Below are positions 3,287 to 63,963 of a stretch of 64,000 nucleotides of DNA, in pieces. The notes beneath the pieces were generated by a model. The model had not been told where the DNA came from. It did no database searches and worked only from the letters and a program-made list of their open reading frames with translations. The stretch is taken from NCBI GenBank assembly GCA_031002005.1, contig CM061919.1, forward strand, positions 221,772,739 through 221,836,738. Reading direction: 5' to 3'. Position numbers and translations under genes: made by a program. The DNA comes from Vandiemenella viatica. Its lineage: Eukaryota > Arthropoda > Insecta > Orthoptera > Morabidae. Position 1 is the first letter of the stretch, and every line of letters starts with the position of its first letter.

Positions 3287-3511
3287 CAGAGATGTGCAAG
3301 ATACCTCGAAAAAAGTATTTGAATACAAGATACAAGATACATTTAAATAATGTATCTTAGATATCAGATACAAGATACTTTTGGAAAAGGTATTTGAAAT
3401 ACAAGATACAAAATACATATTTTCCAGATACTTTTTTAAGATAAAATACTTTTTTACAAAATATATTACTTTTATTTAGAAACATATTTTACTACAATGT
3501 ACAAGTGTTGC

Positions 3512-7075: not shown

Positions 7076-7262
7076 GGTAAAATCATGGAGGAAGGAATTA
7101 TATGGAGGAGAAGTGACGTTAAATCGGTGAAGCAAGCACTAAACTCTCCCGCATGGTGGCAGCACCGGCAGCGACCATATGGCGCTTCCCAACAATTAAG
7201 GTGTTCACATTGTGGTAGATGCAGTGATTATTTCATTTAGTATTGTGTATAAGTGTTTAAAA

Positions 7263-7349
7263 ATGCCAGCTTGTGTTGCGTACGGTTGCACAAATAGGCC
7301 AGACAGGAAAGAACCTGGAATATCATTTCATAAGGAAGTTGAATTGTAA
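7263..7349 (+). pseudogene. THAP zinc-finger first exon, fragment in copy A
   Basis: An ATG opens MPACVAYGCTNRPDRK and continues EPGISFHKEVEL to a stop. The pattern M-P-x-C-x-A-x-G-C-x-N-R with a following G-(I/L)-(S/A)-F is the start of the C2CH THAP DNA-binding domain, including its first two zinc-binding cysteines. The rest of the domain (the CxxH half and AVPTIF box) is absent. In THAP genes the first exon often ends just after this GxSFH segment, so the fragment corresponds to exon 1. The donor position aligned to copy B reads AT instead of GT here, so splicing from this copy is unlikely. Confidence 0.75.
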
Positions 7350-8265
7350 TTATCGTTGTTGAAGTGAGCGGTAGACACCGCAAACTTTGCAGCACGTCTA
7401 TAAATATTTAGTCATAGCTCTCAATGGGATGACTTTGTTCACAAATTTTTCTTGGTGTAGTGTAGAAAATCAGCAAACTTGCTATTTTGCACATAATAGA
7501 CTAGCATTATTTTTTAACGAGTGTTTAAAATGAGATTTAAAGGGGCGTGTTTTACTTCGCGATTCAGTGAATTTACTATTACGATTTCTTTCGTCACGTT
7601 GCTGATTATACTGTCAATGGATGATGAAATTAACTGTTATGTGAGAAGCTGTGAGTTTTATTAATTTTTTAAATAGCTATTTCAGGCCATTGACTTAGGT
7701 TATTTTTAAAGCTTCATATAAGACTTGTTTCTGTTTGTAAATAGGTCTATACCTATTTTACCGATTTTGAAATCTTTCTCATCTATTTATGTCGAAACAG
7801 GTTCATGCAGAAATAAAAATGGGCTTCATAAATAAAGAAGTTATTGGCCTTTGAACAAAATCAATTTGGGGAATGTGTTTCTAATTTAGTCTCTTTTTTT
7901 TGTACAACATTCTCCCCCCCCCCCCCCGTATCTAAATCTAATTGAGAGATAATTTTTTTACAATTGTCCTAATAAGTAGGGCTGTGAAATTAGACAACAC
8001 ATCTTGATCAAGAGAATGTTCATTAAGGTGACTGAATAAACATTTTATTTCTGGTACCAGCCTACAAAATGTCTGGGTTGCTCATCCCTAGAGTGGGTCC
8101 TCTTACTTTTTTTTCTGGTCTAGGACACATTTCAGACTAACCACAAGTGGTAGTAATAAAACTGAAATATCCATTCTGCATGTCAACCATGTAATCATTG
8201 TGGCTTTGACAGAATTAATTTTTGGTCCAGCCTGCATCCAAACCTAAACCCCTCAATTTAGATGT

Positions 8266-8640
8266 TGTATATCCCCCAAACTAAGCAAGATATCGAAAAC
8301 ATTTATTCTTTATTATCGAGTTTTTTCGTCGTGTTACATAAGAATCCATCATTAAATTTGACTTTTGCGAAATTTTTCTTCTGCATTTCAACTCAAGACA
8401 CCTCACTTTTGAGACAGTATATCTCGAGAACTAGGTGAAATATCGAAAAATTTTACTCTTTATTTTTTATTTGTCTCGTCTTTTTAAATAAAAATTCATC
8501 ATAAAATTTGACTTTGAATAATTTTTTCTTCTGAATTTCAACCAAAACCATTTCACATTTGAGACAGAATATCTCGAAAACTAAGCAGGATATCAAAAAA
8601 TTTTATTCTTCATTTTTTATTTGTCTCATCGAGTTACATA
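8266..8640 (-). repeat. Three ~150-bp tandem subrepeats in P-like copy A
   Basis: Each unit carries 'gagacagtatatctcgagaa', a 'gatatcgaaaa' box and an AT-rich string 'ttttattctttattttttat'. A 'gttacataa.aatccatcat' box and 'aaatttgactttg' follow. Units are spaced about 150 bases apart. The same array lies inverted at 9060-9480 in copy B and, with two clear units, at 62985-63215 in copy C, so it is an original part of the element. Confidence 0.75.
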
Positions 8641-8846
8641 ATAATCCATCACCAGATTGCGGCGTCACGTTTATCCTAGAGTCCCCTTGAGGTGTTTGTA
8701 CATATTCCCCGTGTTTGTTGGGAAGCGGTCAAGCCCCCACCACTCCGGCCATGCCCCCCCACTCCTCCGCCGGCCTGCTTCACTCCCATGCGTGGTAAAG
8801 GTCTCTTGCGTCGTCTCCATATTATTCCTTCCTCCATGGGTAAAAT

Positions 8847-8890
8847 ATGGCGCGGACCAAAGACAATAGACAGGCAGGTGTTCGTTTATG
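8847..8890. other. 44-bp host spacer between two P-like insertions
   Basis: Once both insertions and their duplications are accounted for, this is original hAT interior lying between two separate P-like insertion sites. Its left neighbour is the second GGTAAAAT and its right neighbour is the first GTTTTCAC. The two events were therefore independent insertions, not one inverted duplication. Confidence 0.7.
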
Positions 8891-9059
8891 GTTTTCACCA
8901 TGGAGGAAGGAATATATGGAGACGACGCAAGGGACCTTCGCCACATACTGGAGTGAAACCGGGCGGAGACAAGTGGGGAGGGGAGGCAGCCATATTGCTT
9001 GACCAGAGAAACACGGAAATATGCACAAAAACCTCAAGGGAATCATAAGACAACCGTGG

Positions 9060-9480
9060 CACCGCAATTTGATGACGGATTATGTAACTCGACGAGACAC
9101 ATCAAAAATGAAGAATAAAATTTTTTGATATCGTGCTTAGTTCTCGAGATATACTGTCTCAAAAGAGTGGAGTTTCTGGTTGAAATTCAGAAGAAACGTG
9201 TCCCCAAAGTCAAATTTGGTGATAGATTCTTATGTAACACGACGATACAAATCGAAAATAAAGAATAAAATTTTTCGATATCTCGCTTAGTTCGCGAGAT
9301 ATACTGTCTCAAAAGTGAGGTTGTTAGGTTATGAGGGGATTCAACGATAACCGTGGAGCCGCAATTTGATGACGAATTCTTATGTAACTCGATGAGGGAA
9401 ACTGAAAGTAAATAATAAAATTTTTTGATATCTCGCTTAGTTCTCGAGATATTGTACGTGGTTAGGATGAAATGCGGCCT
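9060..9480 (+). repeat. ~150-bp tandem subrepeats in P-like copy B
   Basis: Three units with the box 'gatatctcgcttagttctcg' (positions near 9127, 9277 and 9427) are spaced 150 bases apart. Each is preceded by an 'aaagaataaaattttt' string and 'atgtaac.cgacgaga'. They are the inverse complement of the array in copy A. Confidence 0.8.
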
Positions 9481-10379
9481 GGACCAGAAAAAAACTATCG
9501 CCATATCCATATTTGATGATGAATTCGGACGGAACTTAATGAGCAGGTAATTCTTTTTAACTTCAATAACAAAGTGTTATTTCTACAGTCCTTAAATTTT
9601 AGTTGATGTTCAAATAGGTTATATTTTCACATTGTATTTCAGTAATTGACAAGGAAGATTTCAAAATCTAGAAATATACTTGTAGACATATTTACAAACA
9701 GAAACAAGTCATATCTGAAATTTAAAAAAAAGCATAAGTCAATGTTTAGAGCTTTTTAAAAAAATAATACCTCATAAAACCTCATAGTTTCTGAGCTTAC
9801 TTAAAAGATATTGTACTGGTAGTGGCCTATATAATTTTGCTAGAAAAAACAGTACATTCAAAAATCAGAAGCTAACAGCTAATAATAAATAAATTGTTTG
9901 TTCTCTACTGGTATACACCGCATTTCAACCTTCCAACATTTCCATTAATATTGCCGCTACAAAACCAAACTATGTAGACACATCTAAACACAAGAAATGC
10001 ATCGCGAACTACATTTCCGTCAACAAAGTTTATTTCATCACGTTTAGTAGTTCGCACAGCACAAATTATCACGATTAATTTCATCGTGCAATTTCAGTGT
10101 AAACTTACAACGTGAGTAATGCATGCAGAATACCATATTCACTGTGTCGCGATGTAAACATGACCCGTTTAAATTAAATTTCCAACATTTGTCTACAATA
10201 AGGCTAGCTTTTCAGGTGCAAAATAGTAACATATGCTAATTGTCTACACTAAACAAACAAAAATTTGAGAATAATATGATCCTATTGAGAGAAATGAATA
10301 AATTTATAGCGAATGGCACTAATGTTGCGGTTGCCTGTCAGTTACTTCAAGAACGATAATTACAATGTGACTTACTTAC

Positions 10380-10446
10380 GAAACGCTATTCCAGGTTTTT
10401 TCCTATCTCGTCTGTTTGTGCAACCATATGCATCACAACTTGGCAT
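10380..10446 (-). pseudogene. THAP zinc-finger first exon with splice donor, copy B
   Basis: The minus strand opens MPSCDAYGCTNRRDRK and continues KPGIAF, then meets C|GTAAGT, a consensus insect 5' splice site, at plus positions 10374-10379. The start, the two cysteines and the N-R motif match the beginning of the THAP domain. Exon 1 would be 67 bases with a phase-1 junction. No acceptor or exon 2 encoding the second half of the finger lies within this element. It is either a relic of the autonomous parent or an exon that could be spliced onto sequence outside the element. Confidence 0.75.
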
Positions 10447-10910
10447 TATAGAAAACTTTAGAATATTAGAAAACGAAATATTCTCAGCAGCTGACACAGT
10501 GCAAACAGCCCAATGTTTTGGTACTCCTAGGATGTCCGTCGCGCAGGCACAGTTTTTTCACGTGGTTTCACGGATTTCGCGTTATCTCGTCTCCATATAT
10601 TCCTTCCTCCATGGTTTTCACAGTTCACAGGTATGAAGGAAGGCAAAGATAACTAGACCCTATAACCTTGTCTTTTGATATACGTTAATGAATTTTACGA
10701 ATGTATTCCGTTGTTTTTATGATGCCGTAACGTAAAAATGCGGAAATAGTATTTAGTATTTTCAAGATACAAAGATACAAAGAAAAAGTATCTAAATACA
10801 AGATACAAGATAAAGATTAAGAAAAGTATCTTAGATACTAGATAAAGATACGTATTTTGTATCTTGTATCTGTATTTCAAATACTTTTATCTAGATAAGT
10901 CACATCTCTG

Positions 10911-16491: not shown

Positions 16492-17777
16492 CGAGGGCGG
16501 TCCGATAAGTACTTAGCCTTCAAAAGAAAAAGAAAACGGAAATGTTGGAAAATGGGCGATTTATTTCTCAACATAGTCTCCTTTTAGCTCGATACACTTG
16601 ACCCAGCGATGTTCCAACTTTTTTAACCCGTCTGAAAAATACGTTTTCTGGAGATCTGCAAAGTAGGCCTCCGCGGCGGCGATAACCTCATTCGACTCAA
16701 AATTTCTGCTCGTCGAGTGTCGTCTTGAAGTTTGGAAACAAAAAGAAGTCGCACGGGTCCAAACCTGGAGAATATGGTGGATGGGGCAGCAGTTCGTATC
16801 CCAATTAGGCTGTGGCGACGGCAAAGGTATGAGCCGGTGCGTTGTCATGGTGGAAGAGCACTTTTTTTTCTCTCCAAATGGGACCATTTTTTTTCTGCAT
16901 TTCGACGTCGAATCGGCCCAATAATTCGGCTTAGTAAAGCCCTGTGATCGTTTTACCCTTCTCCAGGTAGTCGGTGTAGATCACACCTTGTGAATCTCAG
17001 AAAACGGTGCCATCACCTTTCCGGCCGATGGGACAGTCTTCGCCTTTTTCGGAGCACGTTCGCCGGGCAAAGTCCACTGTTTTGACTGTTCCTTGGTCTC
17101 TGGTGTGTACCAGTGGATCCATGTTTCGTCGACGGTCAAGTAACTACGCAGAAACTCCTTCGGGTTGCGCTTAAACAGCGTCATACACTGCTGTGAAGTG
17201 GTCTCACGGTTGCGCTTGTTGTGTGGAGTGAGCAAACGCGGCACCCATCGCGCTGACAGCTTTCCCATGCCCAAAATTTCACGCAAGATATGACCCACGC
17301 GGTCTTTTGAAATGCCTACTGTCCCAGCAATCTCGCGCACTTTCAATCGGCAGTCTGCCAATACGAAATCGTGGATTTTTGTCACGTTAGCCTCAGTGGT
17401 AACCGTTTTCGGGGCACCTGGGCGTGGCTTATCAAAAACCGACGTGCGTCCTCGTTGAAACTCGTTAAACCAATTTTTGACAGTCTCCATCGAAGGAAGA
17501 TTCCGCGTACACAGCATGGAAGCACTCTTTGATTTCGCTGTGCGATTTTCCTTCCAAAAACAAGAATCGAATAACCGACCGATATTACTCTTTTTCCATT
17601 TTTCTAAAATCGCGGACACGCCCACTTTCACACGCGATCAAAACAAAACTATGAGTCAGATTTGGCTGAAATTTTAACAATAGCCGTCTAAGATAATGTA
17701 CTACATGATAATAAATTTCTCTGGCGACAGTGGCGCCATCGGGAAGAGAGGCTAACTCCTTAACGGACCTACCTCGT
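16492..17777 (-). mobile_element. mariner transposon (irritans-like), full length, broken
   Basis: About 1.29 kb, the usual mariner size. The ends are imperfect inverted repeats (left CGAGGGCGGTCCGATAAGTA; the right end, reversed, CGAGGTAGGTCCGTTAAGG). TA lies immediately outside the left end at 16490-16491 and at 17778-17779 on the right. The transposase is on the minus strand. The left flank is the (GT)35 run. Confidence 0.92.
16561..17631 (-). pseudogene. mariner transposase, frameshifted
   Basis: The mariner transposase cuts and re-joins DNA at TA sites using a D,D34D catalytic triad. The first 216 codons from 17631 carry an N-terminal helix-turn-helix region and then WVPRLLTP, the mariner linker. 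After it comes TVDETWIHWYTPETK, which holds the first catalytic Asp. A frame change follows near 16980. The downstream part carries HHDNAPAH-like (second Asp) and YSPGLDPCDFFLF (third Asp) in another frame and ends LKGDYVEK at about 16561. Features such as VPRLLTP, DETWIH and YTPE.K match the irritans subfamily better than mauritiana or mellifera. With at least two frame breaks, no active enzyme is expected. Confidence 0.9.
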
Positions 17778-43085: not shown

Positions 43086-45830
43086 ATGCCGAAATCGCAC
43101 CCAAGCACAACTAAATATCAAAAGGGATACGAGAATCTGTTTCCGTGGGTAGCACCTGATCCAAATGACAATACAAATGCTATTTGCATTTGGTGCAAAA
43201 AAACGATCAATGTTTCGAGCATGGGAAAAAGTGCTTTACAAAGTCACTCTGAGAGTAAAAAACATAAATGTTTTAGTGCAAATTCACAGAAGACGTTACC
43301 ATTGGATGCATTTATGAAGAAGTTTGAAACTTCAAAGATGAAATCGGACACGAATAACAATGGATCAGTTCAAGGTATTTTCTGATTTATCTGTACGCTA
43401 TTTTTAATGCTTTCAAGTTGTCCAGTTTTTATTCTGTCTCTAAGTGCCTATATCTCTGTGAAAAATATTTAATTAATTGTTTATAAAAAGAATGATATAA
43501 TTATTGTTTACAAAAACAGAATCAATCGACTTTCATTATCGGTACATTGTAACTGACGATACGAATATTAGTTCCGTTATATTTTCGCTCGAAATTCAAA
43601 ATTAGGATAAAAATAAACATAAATATAATTTAGATCGTATTTCAATTTTTCATTTTTTTATGAGAATTTTCATTATTACTGTTACCGGTATCATTATTCG
43701 GCATAGTAAACTTTTAAAACCCTTCAACAGAACAGTCACAACAGAGTCCCGAATCCGTACCGAGTGGAAGCCGAGTGTCTATTGTACTCAATTTTCAACC
43801 TAAAATGAACATTATTATTCTCTCATTGTATGTTGCATACTAGCTACTAAACGTCATTTATTGTTTTTATAGCGATTCCAGTACATAACGGAACAGTATC
43901 CTCTAAGCAACAGAACGAGCCGAAGAAGCAATCAGTAATGCAGTCATACCTACTCTCAGAACAGGTTACACGAGCTGAAATCCTGTGGTGTTTGCGCACC
44001 ATTAGGAGTCACATGTCAATTCGGAGTTTAGCGGATTGTACGGCGTTGTTTACTTCATTATTTCCGGACAGTCAAATTGCAAGTAACATGCAATTACAAA
44101 AATCGAAAATTTGTTACAGCATCGTCTATGGGATTGCTCCATACTTAAAGAGTAAACTTGTCGATTTAATTGAAAAATGTGATTTGGCTGTGTTAGAATT
44201 CGATGAAAGTATGAATACTGTTTCTAGAACGACTCAAATGGACGTGCATATCCGATTTTGGGACCACGAGAAATCATTAGTATCGACACGATATTACGAT
44301 TCCGTTTTTTTATAGCGCACAAGGGCAAATGACTTGCTTAAAAGTTTAACCAGTTCATTTGGTTTAGAAAATATTAACAAAATTGTGCAGCTGTCCATGG
44401 ATGGACCAAATGTAAATTTAAAACTTTTTAATGACTTTAACAAGGAACCTTCGATAGCTTACAGCTTTTGCAAGTTGGTAGCTGTAGTTTGCATATTGTC
44501 CACGGCGCATTCAAAACAGGCATATCTGAAACCAAGTGGGAAATTGTGTCATTTTTGAGAGCATCTCATAATTTATTTTATGACTCGCCTGCACGAAAGG
44601 CACAATACATGAAAATAACTAAATCTTCATCCTATCCGGAATCATTCTGTGGAACACGATGGGTGGAAAATGCCAGTGCTGCTGAGAAAGCCGTGGAAAT
44701 TCTGGAGAATATTCGAACATATATTACTGAAACACAGAAAGAAAAAAACATTTCTACATCACAGAGTTTTAAAATTGTTTCTGAAGCTGTCAGTGACAAA
44801 TTACTAGGTCCGAAATTGACTTTCTTTAGTTCAACAGCCCATTTGCTGGAACCTTTTTTACATGATTTTCAGAGTGACGTCCCGATGGCTCCACTTTTAT
44901 ATGACGAATTGAACAATCTTTTTAACACTTTAATGCAGCGGGTAATTAAACCGGATGTCCTTAAAAGCATGATGAAAATCGACTTACAGGATACAAAGAA
45001 TTTGATTTTTGCAAAAGATTTCGATTTGGACTTCGCTACAAGAAGTGCACTAAAGAAAGTCAAAGAAGTTTCTGAAAAGGAATTCTTGTATTTAAAAGAA
45101 AGCATGCGATCATGTATTATTGTTATAATTCAAATACTTCAAATAGAACTCGCCACTAAAATATAACTTAACACGTGCAATTTCCTGCTTGAATCCAGCG
45201 AATGCATTAATACACGAAACAGCGCAAAAAAGATTGACCTTATGTCTTGATATTTTGGTAACAAATGGAAGAATGTCAGGTTCCAAGGCAGACCGTGTGA
45301 AGTGTGAGTTTCTTGATCTTTGCAGGGACAAAAGAATTCAAGAACAGTTGAAATCCTTCAAGAGAAGCGAAGGTCGCCTAGATCAGTTTTGGGTTGATAT
45401 AATCAACATGTCTTTGAAGCCCTGTCCAAACTTCCGCGACTTTATGCAATTGATTTTTGATAATTTCACATGGAAACGCTTCTGTTGAACGAGGTTTTTC
45501 CATAAACTCCGAGTGTATTATTGAAAATCAAAGTAAAAAAAAAGCATTGTTGCTCAAAGGTACGTTTATGACGCAGTCCAGACGGCTGGTGGAGTTCACT
45601 CTTTTAACATCGATAAAAGTTTGATACAATAGTTTCGCAATGCTCATTCTTTGTACAAAGATGATATGAAGAATCAGAAAAATGAAATCTCAAAACAAAA
45701 TGAGGAACGATTGATGAACAAGCGAAAGCAGGATGAGATCAAAGAATTGGAAGCAAATTTTGGCTGAAGCGTCAAAAATCTCAGTAGAGATAGAACATTT
45801 AAAAAAATAACTTTTTCATTAATTTATATC
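43086..45830 (+). pseudogene. BED-finger hAT-type transposase, two exons, broken
   Basis: Exon 1 (43086-43374) begins MPKSHPSTTKYQKGYENLF and carries an N-terminal zinc finger, ICIWCKKT...HSESKKHK, of BED/C2H2 type. It ends at CAAG|GTATTT. An intron of about 498 bases ends TTTTTATAG|CG at 43872, and the junction restores the frame (NNGSVQ to AIPVHNG). Exon 2 has an in-frame stop at 44313-44315, a frameshift near 44460, more between 45100 and 45190, and another near 45480. Conserved blocks include LSMDGPNVN, HIVHGAFKTG, GTRWVENA and, close to the C-terminus, HGNASVERGFSINSE, which is the hAT dimerisation signature. A lysine/glutamate-rich coiled-coil-like tail follows to about 45815. At least four lesions make it non-functional. 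Confidence 0.85.
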
Positions 45831-62811: not shown

Positions 62812-63963
62812 CGTGGAGGAAAGAAAAGTGTGAAGGCGACCCAAAAGACTTTCACCACGCACTGTAGTGAAGTAGGGTGGGGAGGTCGCCATATTTGGAT
62901 TTCCCTAGAAAAACGGGGAATATGCACACACCTCAAGAGGATGATATGATAACCGTGGCACCGCAATTTGATGATGGATTATTATGTAACTCTACGAGAC
63001 AAATCAAAACTGAAGAATAATTTTTTATATATATCCTGCTTAATTCTCGATATATACTATCTCAAAAGTTAAGTGTTTTGGGTTTAAATTCAGAAGAAAA
63101 ATTTTCCCAAAGTGAAATTTGATTATATGTAACATGACGAGACAAATCGAAAGTAAATAACATTTTTCGATATCTCGCTTAGTTCTCGAGATATACTGTC
63201 TCCAAATTGAGGTGGTTAGGTTGGGATGCGGCATGGTCCAAAAAATAATTTTGCCAAAGCTACTACGAACTACATGCTGCATATGCAGAGTGGGTGTTAT
63301 ATATTTTTTTTTTTTTTACTACACCTTTTGGTTAGGTTGAAACGCGGCCTGGACCAGAATAAAAACGTCACCAAAGCCACAAGGAACTATAGCTACGAGA
63401 GGAACTAAGGAAGATATTAAAAAAATTTACTCTTGATTATCGATTGGTTTCGTCGATTTACATGAGAATTACCAAATTCCTTCGCCACAGTTATGATAGC
63501 GCTGCCCACCTCAACACACAAAATTTATTGCGAACTACAGACTTTCAATACTTGTTTACAATTAGGCTAGCCTATTATGTGGAGAATAGTAAGTCTACAC
63601 TACACCAACAAATATTTGAGAAAAACGTCATCCTATTGAAAGCAATAAATAAATCTATCATGATAGGCCCTAATCTTGCAGATACCTATTAAACACTTCA
63701 AAAACAATAATTACAATGTGACTAAATTATAAAACGGTATTCCAGGTTATTTCCTATCTGGTCTGTTTGTACAACCGTAAACAACACAAGCTGGCATTAT
63801 AAAAAACTTTGAAATATTAGAAAATGAAATAATTACAGCAGCAAACAGTGCAAAATAGCGCAATCTATTATGGCCGCCGCGCATGCGCAATAGGAGCAGA
63901 ATGCTTACAGGAGGCTTCACAGATTTAGCGGTATTTCGCCTCCTCTCTTTTCCTTCCTCCATT
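62812..63963 (-). mobile_element. P-superfamily-like non-autonomous element, copy C
   Basis: A 1,152-bp, more diverged member of the 7084/8899 family, in the orientation of copy B. Ends CGTGGAGGAAAG and CCTTCCTCCATT. Flanks TGCTCATC and GGCTCATT share 6 of 8 bases, a decayed 8-bp target duplication. It keeps the GC-rich left end (with 'cctcaagaggatgatatgat' and 'aaccgtggcaccgcaatttg', shared with copy B), two clear ~150-bp subrepeats and the THAP exon near the right end. It lost about 560 bp of the AT-rich middle compared with copy B. Confidence 0.78.
63726..63797 (-). pseudogene. THAP first exon, copy C, with premature stop
   Basis: The minus strand opens MPACVVYGCTNRPDRK at 63797 and then meets TAA, where copies A and B have a Glu or Lys codon. 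The sequence continues PGIPFYNLV. The donor site aligned to GTAAGT in copy B reads ATAATT here. With the same first cysteine pair and N-R motif it is clearly homologous to the THAP exons in copies A and B, but it is dead twice over. Confidence 0.78.

Follow-up and report, generated by a model that had tools for sequence, protein, structure and literature searches.

How did two transposable elements of one superfamily come to lie back to back? This is the question raised by a 64,000-nucleotide (nt) stretch of contig CM061919.1 of the orthopteran Vandiemenella viatica (positions 221,772,739 to 221,836,738; hereafter the window, in whose own numbering all coordinates are given). Element A (1755 bp, 7084-8838, + strand) was assigned, based on its sequence, its relatives and a transposase-bearing locus discussed below (L094), to the P superfamily as an apparent internal-deletion derivative, while element B (1715 bp, 8899-10613, - strand) was assigned to a second P subfamily based on its sequence and relatives. 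Each is flanked by its own perfect 8-bp target-site duplication: GGTAAAAT at 7076-7083 and 8839-8846 for A, and GTTTTCAC at 8891-8898 and 10614-10621 for B. A host spacer of 44 bp (8847-8890) separates the two insertions and, together with the inner duplications, sets the element ends 60 bp apart; the pair is arranged tail to tail, with both outer ends being 5′ ends. A preliminary description of the locus had given the coordinates, termini and duplications of both elements, and these were found to be exact to the base when the sequence was re-read. We are highly confident that A and B are separately inserted, internally deleted, non-autonomous members of two young P subfamilies, each with its own 8-bp duplication, which probably became neighbors through the clustering of insertions.

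That two insertions are present follows from the two different perfect duplications, which imply independent events; the chance that two random 8-mers from the window agree is 4.7e-5. When A was aligned globally with reversed B, the two were found to be identical in 77.6% of the aligned columns and no perfect run exceeded 29 bp; their middle regions were largely without a BLAST match to each other. A single foldback element and an inverted duplication were both rejected on the basis of this divergence, the distinct duplications and the type of the ends, in agreement with what the preliminary description had concluded. Given the 77.6% identity and the 60 bp between the arms, a cruciform formed by the pair would be unlikely.

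Relatives of both elements were sought in the 3.72-Gb assembly (8965 contigs). The A query returned at least 398 first-look candidates and the B query at least 3224 (both lower bounds), and 40 were scored for each. With the window copy set aside, the A relatives were 96-99% identical; with the window copy and some short fragments set aside, the B relatives were 95-98% identical. Pairwise differences averaged 1.3% in the A family (23 copies) and 2.0% in the B family (20 copies), and some B copies at separate loci had no substitutions between them. Both A and B in the window are young. Each resembles copies on other contigs far more than it resembles its neighbor, and their 77.6% mutual identity predates their arrival. 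The 8-bp duplications expected at genomic relatives were also present: (i) 29 of 40 copies of the B family had a perfect duplication and 4 more had one with a single mismatch; and (ii) 20 of 22 scorable copies of the A family had a perfect one (window copies included; 25 A loci were read, of which L007, L035 and L039 were excluded for copies that are nested or abutting). These duplications lean to GT-N4-AC, with G at 54% and T at 61% in the first two symmetrised positions of 46 sites.

The reason for the adjacency was sought in the distribution of family ends across the genome. Exact 12-mer ends were found to total 23,227, against 668 (314 + 354) for the reversed-word control. Facing ends CCTTCCTCCATG / CATGGAGGAAGG within 1-31 bp of each other were detected at 424 places, compared with 0 in the control. 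Spacing was detailed for the first 50 distinct places among the 424, all on three contigs; in 20 of these 50 the spacing was exactly 8 bp, and 7 bp came next with 4 places. Outside 19 B copies the density of ends was 5.3/kb at 0-25 bp, 0 at 25-50 bp, 1.6/kb at 50-100 bp and 0.05/kb at 400-1500 bp (2 ends in 41.8 kb), and 8 of the 19 B loci (two of them forming one pair, and the window pair excluded) had a family end within 100 bp. A regional hot spot, such as open chromatin, could gather insertions irrespective of ends or of the 8-bp target, and P elements do prefer promoters and replication origins (PMC7776569); yet this explanation is unlikely, as the excess declines within about 100-400 bp and the 8-bp spacing is so common among the places listed, which is too fine a scale for a chromatin domain. 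A mixture of a hot spot with end or target effects is possible. Chance proximity in an element-rich genome fares somewhat worse: the family is abundant and the pair was singled out for being adjacent, yet with 11606 and 11621 ends only 1.12 facing pairs within 31 bp would be expected, 3 facing pairs within 62 bp lie in the first 15 Mb listed versus 0.01 expected, and the density of ends near the B copies drops with distance as given above. We infer that clustering rather than chance put A beside B.

At individual loci, the clustering was found to take more than one form. In L020 with L090, one 8-bp target (GTTTGAAC or GTTTTAAC) occurs five times, bordering one copy each of B and A, a fused-end stub of 27 bp and a partial stub of 17 bp. 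Insertion into another copy was observed at L021 and L061, where B lies within a copy at GTTTGCAC, and at L024, where B lies inside an A TIR (terminal inverted repeat) with an imperfect duplication. A looser class, with distinct duplications tens of bp apart, includes the window pair, L014/L026 (one duplication of which has a mismatch, as read by eye) and L022 with L091. A 10-kb contig (L029, G000:C8411) carries four A copies, two of them incomplete, and a shortened B in a row, with gaps of 8, 6, 6 and 44 bp. Tail-to-tail pairs other than that of the window were noted at L011, L014/L026, L022 with L091 and, as an A-B pair, in L029, at distances of 11, 70, 85 and 44 bp, respectively. A preference for this arrangement, which these loci had suggested, was not upheld: of 19 places with a spacing of 9-31 bp, both ends could be assigned a type at 12, one side is a stub at 4, and the remaining 3 are unclear; the 12 typed places comprise 6 tandem, 2 tail-to-tail and 4 head-to-head pairs (one of these four typed weakly), a mixture by which pair orientation looks random. 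Within the titles and abstract openings of open-access literature on P-element and MITE (miniature inverted-repeat transposable element) clustering, same-site insertion, stubs and re-insertion, no serial insertion of P-superfamily elements at 8-bp steps was found; the same was true of the titles and abstract openings on non-autonomous P-superfamily elements.

Two further explanations concern the pair itself. Local hopping, in which B derives from A or A from B after landing, is very improbable. The two have termini in common and P elements hop locally over about 50-150 kb (PMC7776569), but they come from different subfamilies and both have much closer kin on other contigs, and if 20-25% divergence had accumulated in place, the probability of at most one mismatch in the 66 duplication and TIR sites would be 7e-6 to 1e-7. 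The local re-insertion of one element as the other, which the preliminary description had offered, is refuted in this literal form; co-mobilisation of A and B by one transposase from nearby donors is possible. Scarcely credible is the last explanation, again one suggested earlier, that the double structure is a composite mobile unit using its two outermost ends: the first 15 bp of both outer ends are identical and tail-to-tail pairs do occur elsewhere, but the outer 8-mers match at only 3 of 8 positions whereas each element has its own duplication, both outer ends are of the 5′ type (which would be unfavourable if the end asymmetry of P elements applies), the remaining tail-to-tail pairs stand at differing distances, the 12 typed places favour no inverted arrangement, the outer 8-mers of L011 (GTCCAGAC and CGATTAAC) mismatch too although neither of its elements has clean duplications, and no locus bounded by the two outer ends alone was seen, with no dedicated search made for one.

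In addition to whole copies, the ends of these families were found fused in short excision stubs. Within 335 kb of loci plus the window, 12 distinct stubs of this kind, 20-31 bp long, were identified, and 10 of these are flanked by 8-mers with no more than 2 mismatches. Genome-wide, stubs of 25-36 bp with both 12-bp ends exact numbered 593 (control 0), and among the matches listed (the first 50 of the 593) the lengths were 27-34 bp with peaks at 30 and 31. Stubs of 35-65 bp numbered 53, several of which are two successive stubs. Among the 50 matches listed, the commonest stub, CATGGAGGAAGGAATATTCCTTCCTCCATG (11 of 50), is what two B ends of 17 nt give when annealed at ATAT. Cleavage by P transposase produces 3′ extensions of 17 nt (PMC7776569), and two simply joined ends can therefore keep at most 34 bp; the stub lengths thus provide indirect evidence that appears to fit the staggered cleavage of a P-type enzyme. 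The alternative, that the stubs are independent palindromic mini-elements, leaves the 34-bp limit unexplained. At L010, nearby units of an unrelated tandem repeat were seen to hold a B copy and, between GTTAAAAC and GTTCAAAC, a stub of 23 bp.

For the clustered insertions of two subfamilies, the following course of events is proposed. A and B were most likely each moved by a P-type THAP transposase from relatives elsewhere in the genome, and they are probably adjacent since insertions of the family cluster: at the same 8-bp site, next to or inside ends, and beside stubs. The GT-N4-AC target would persist on both sides of every copy and stub, so that the place may be struck again, and an attraction of transposition to element ends may add to this reuse. 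The clustering would then be due to the reuse of preferred targets, to end attraction, or to both. We put forward tentatively, and with a little more doubt than belief, the broader idea that this P-superfamily system is self-steering: insertions and stubs would recreate GT-N4-AC beside an end, and ends would attract copies, with the window pair as one product. Such self-steering might build chains of the form target-B-target-A-target-stub-target-stub-target, as in L020 with L090, although this too we hold with slightly less than even confidence. If true, end attraction would relieve other parts of the genome of some of the transposon load.

A transposase-bearing relative was identified for the A subfamily. 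A search with PF21787, the RNase H family of P transposases, gave 671 candidates, and all 150 of the 150 scored were above the cut-off, while the same search in 14 control genomes yielded no candidate. Of three loci retrieved, L094 has an A-type 5′ TIR and matches A positions 1-700 at 98%; it carries exon 1 with the splice donor GTAAGT, a second THAP half farther downstream, and an open frame of 944 aa from stop to stop with the domains PF12017, PF21787, PF21788, PF21789 and PF22824. By these domains the frame qualifies as a P-type transposase, a class characterised by an HTH, a split RNase H and a GTP-binding insertion. The best solved structure for this frame is 6p5a, the Drosophila P transposase (E 5e-30). 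Duplications of 8 bp also occur in the hAT superfamily; the domains encoded by this relative, which has DNA in common with A, are of the P type. On the far side of the frame, A positions 682-957 are matched at 95%. Since A flanks the frame on both sides, it looks like an internal-deletion derivative of a longer L094-type relative, having lost about 3.95 kb with a 3-bp overlap; the predicted junction is the ATC at 7781-7783 (+ strand), which is common to both arms of L094. Beyond position 957, A had no match in the 6.7 kb of L094 read, short stretches excepted. A P-type frame is thus found in the relative L094 and is absent from A and B. The earlier view of A and B as P-like is supported. A transposase-bearing relative would be expected for the subfamily of B as well. 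Loci L093 and L095 represent other P-type lineages with no DNA similarity to A, B or C (a third window copy described below). The PF21787 matches also include several P-type lineages with long frames, such as a 796-aa group with equal scores at several places.

The termini of the window copies were examined for P-type organization. The 5′ TIR of A (7084-7107, + strand) pairs with its 3′ TIR (8815-8838, - strand) at 23 of 24 positions, and the 3′ TIR of B (8899-8925, + strand) pairs with its 5′ TIR (10587-10613, - strand) at 27 of 27. Internal to the TIRs of A, and outside the TIRs themselves, lie two copies of GTGAAGCA, 44 bp from the 5′ end (7127-7134, + strand) and 56 bp from the 3′ end (8776-8783, - strand), followed by the 13-bp subterminal inverted repeat CGCTTCCCAACAA at 7183-7195 (+ strand; element positions 100-112) and 8715-8727 (- strand; 112-124 from the 3′ end). 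B carries GTGAAACC 55 bp from its 3′ end (8953-8960, + strand) and 43 bp from its 5′ end (10564-10571, - strand). A third copy, element C (1152 bp, 62812-63963, - strand), is older, with an imperfect duplication (TGCTCATC/GGCTCATT, 6/8), decayed termini whose TIRs agree at 21 of 27 positions, a stop in exon 1 and a lost splice donor. In A, B and C, respectively, the GTGAA motif lies 44, 43 and 44 bp from the 5′ end and 56, 55 and 56 bp from the 3′ end; the subterminal offset is therefore 12 bp in all three window copies, and the 13-bp repeat of A has the same offset. A shared subterminal word of at least 13 bp, the length of the repeat in A, arose in 1 of 2000 shuffles; taken alone, the longest shared word was not significant in B (an 8-mer, 359 of 2000) or C (968 of 2000), and in C the subterminal 8-mers of the two ends differ. 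Judged by their sequence, the short TIRs and the 12-bp difference in subterminal spacing fit the P superfamily, with the motifs as putative binding sites.

Exon 1 starts about 170-180 bp inside each of the three copies. In A its 71-nt remnant (7263-7333, + strand) encodes MPACVAYGCTNRPDRKEPGISFH-K, the first half of a THAP domain, and is followed by GGAAGT (7334-7339, + strand) in place of the intron-1 donor, which is lost; in B the 71-nt exon (10376-10446, - strand) encodes MPSCDAYGCTNRRDRKKPGIAFR-K and the donor GTAAGT is intact (10370-10375, - strand). Among the 22 other A copies, GTAAGT was present in all 21 that could be read. The closest solved structure to exon 1 of B was human THAP1 (E 7.8e-4), and in A, B and C the 71-nt exon is followed by a phase-2 intron positioned like intron 1 of THAP1, which lies at c.71 (PMC4049367). 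The THAP domain of the superfamily is accordingly represented by exon 1 of B, as compared with THAP1, and by the second half in L094. A protein search with exon 1 gave no candidate. Exon 1 was found to be 82-86% conserved among A, B and C, compared with 56-63% for the upstream region and 70-77% for intron 1. The idea of exon 1 as a selected gene was rejected: 19 of the 30 codon changes in the three comparisons are non-synonymous, and copies within families are simply young.

Near the 3′ end, A has three 150-bp tandem subrepeats (8239-8688, + strand), B has three as 91-nt core copies with starts 150 bp apart (9080-9470, - strand), and C has two. The last monomers of A, B and C group together, with mixed support within a small tree, by which the array seems to be older than the separation of the subfamilies. 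The arrangement ATATCTCG-N9-CGAGATAT, with exact arms, was observed in two of the three B monomers (9043-9452) and in one of the two C monomers, and is a candidate protein-binding site or satellite seed. Two motifs sought in viral contigs gave 0 matches.

Several observations weigh against A and B being clustered insertions of young P subfamilies. With regard to clustering, (i) it is weaker at A copies, where 2 of 21 loci have an end within 100 bp; (ii) the genome-wide count spans 1-31 bp, and the 60-bp spacing of the window pair lies outside it; (iii) A and B share no duplication, so that the window pair is not itself an 8-bp serial insertion; and (iv) one 12-bp spacer recurs unchanged, with matching end types, at two neighboring places, by which part of the clustering may reflect tandem duplication by recombination rather than transposition. 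With regard to the stubs, the 34-bp limit is not absolute, as at least 6 stubs of 36 bp were found and, in some of the longer ones, over 17 nt of an end is retained. With regard to P membership, exon 1 of A scores below the Pfam THAP cut-off (13.2 vs 23.9 bits), the exon-1 peptides of B and C had no Pfam match, and, apart from one sub-threshold match to an unrelated family, none was obtained for the nine read-through frames on the sense strand of the three elements (antisense frames lay outside the scan). Furthermore, no 3′ end of L094 turned up within the 6.7 kb that were read and its splicing is predicted, and no transposase-bearing partner of B was found; L097 and L098, of a second type with related ends, match B only in parts.

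Elsewhere in the window, an open frame at 16981-17637 (- strand) has a partial match to a mariner-type transposase (PF01359). Two open frames at 43851-45166 (+ strand) have no Pfam match at E 0.1; we take them to be reminiscent of a hAT-like or zinc-finger-type protein. Short AT-rich repeats of the GATAC type, probably an unrelated repeat, occur just right of B (10770-10910) and at 3297-3473. Rfam and tRNA scans of the window gave 0 matches.

The genome provides a natural record of P-type transposition, with many near-identical copies, relatives that carry open transposase frames, hundreds of excision scars from whose length the stagger of cleavage can be read, and reused 8-bp sites. It lets one ask why cut-and-paste elements cluster, whether their own ends attract transposase, and whether piling limits gene damage. 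Features in common with Drosophila P are the THAP transposase of the relative L094 with its P-type Pfam domains, the 8-bp duplications, the 12-bp subterminal difference and deletion derivatives that retain the 5′ end; the TIRs are also short and start with CATG, as does the Drosophila TIR. The Drosophila P target consensus, GTCCGGAC, resembles GT-N4-AC. Unlike Drosophila P, the window elements have TIRs of 24-27 bp instead of 31 and 150-bp tandem subrepeats near the 3′ end, and this genome, which has far more ends than that of Drosophila, contains hundreds of stubs and same-site piles. Older work on Drosophila P reportedly gave the 9- and 21-bp subterminal spacers the opposite 5′-to-3′ polarity. 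As worded in PMC7776569, where 9 and 21 bp separate TIR and transposase site (a 12-bp difference), the placement agrees with the short subterminal spacing on the exon-1 side of the window copies; the stubs are likewise consistent with the 17-nt extensions described there.

MITEs are small, non-coding, homogeneous elements of high copy number whose ends are shared with an autonomous element. Set beside them, the window elements are long at 1.7 kb; their first-look candidates number at least 398 and at least 3224, the mean differences are 1.3% and 2.0%, and A has its 5′ 700 bp and its positions 682-957 in common with L094, of which no 3′ end was found. In Anopheles gambiae, P-derived MITEs of 205-2450 bp comprise 5′ and 3′ parts of P, have 8-bp duplications and fall into several diverged subfamilies (PMC1562414), and the elements described here resemble them in being P-derived, in their 8-bp duplications and in the presence of diverged subfamilies within one genome. 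The two systems differ in number, with 5-310 copies per family in A. gambiae compared with the first-look candidates counted here, and in their centers, which are unrelated to P in A. gambiae (PMC1562414), whereas that of A appears to be a simple deletion junction; in the present genome the ends also cluster. Galileo, also of the P superfamily, has chimeric subfamilies, THAP sites in tandem repeats near its ends (some copies with units of about 140-210 bp) and a palindromic target consensus, for example GTANTAC, and the TIRs of Tetris contain internal tandem repeats of about 220 bp; both are described with long foldback-like TIRs, and with duplications of mostly 7 bp (Galileo) or 8-10 bp (Tetris) (PMC4168063, PMC3573991, PMC3688188, PMC4079207). 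The window elements, in contrast, have short TIRs (24 and 27 bp) and repeats at the 3′ end only, and membership in the Galileo/foldback group, with TIRs of hundreds of bp to kb, was rejected for this reason. In plants, clustered and nested MITEs were reportedly described by Jiang and Wessler in 2001. Plant MITEs such as DcSto prefer to land in or beside copies of the same family, with independent insertions at one spot; these are Stowaway and Tourist elements with TA or TTA duplications, and P-type stubs and 8-bp stepping go unmentioned in the available text of that source (PMC3695323). As clustering of MITEs is already known from plants, A and B add to a familiar class of elements, and their pairing is ordinary for this genome; it is the pile-up of insertions that is of interest.

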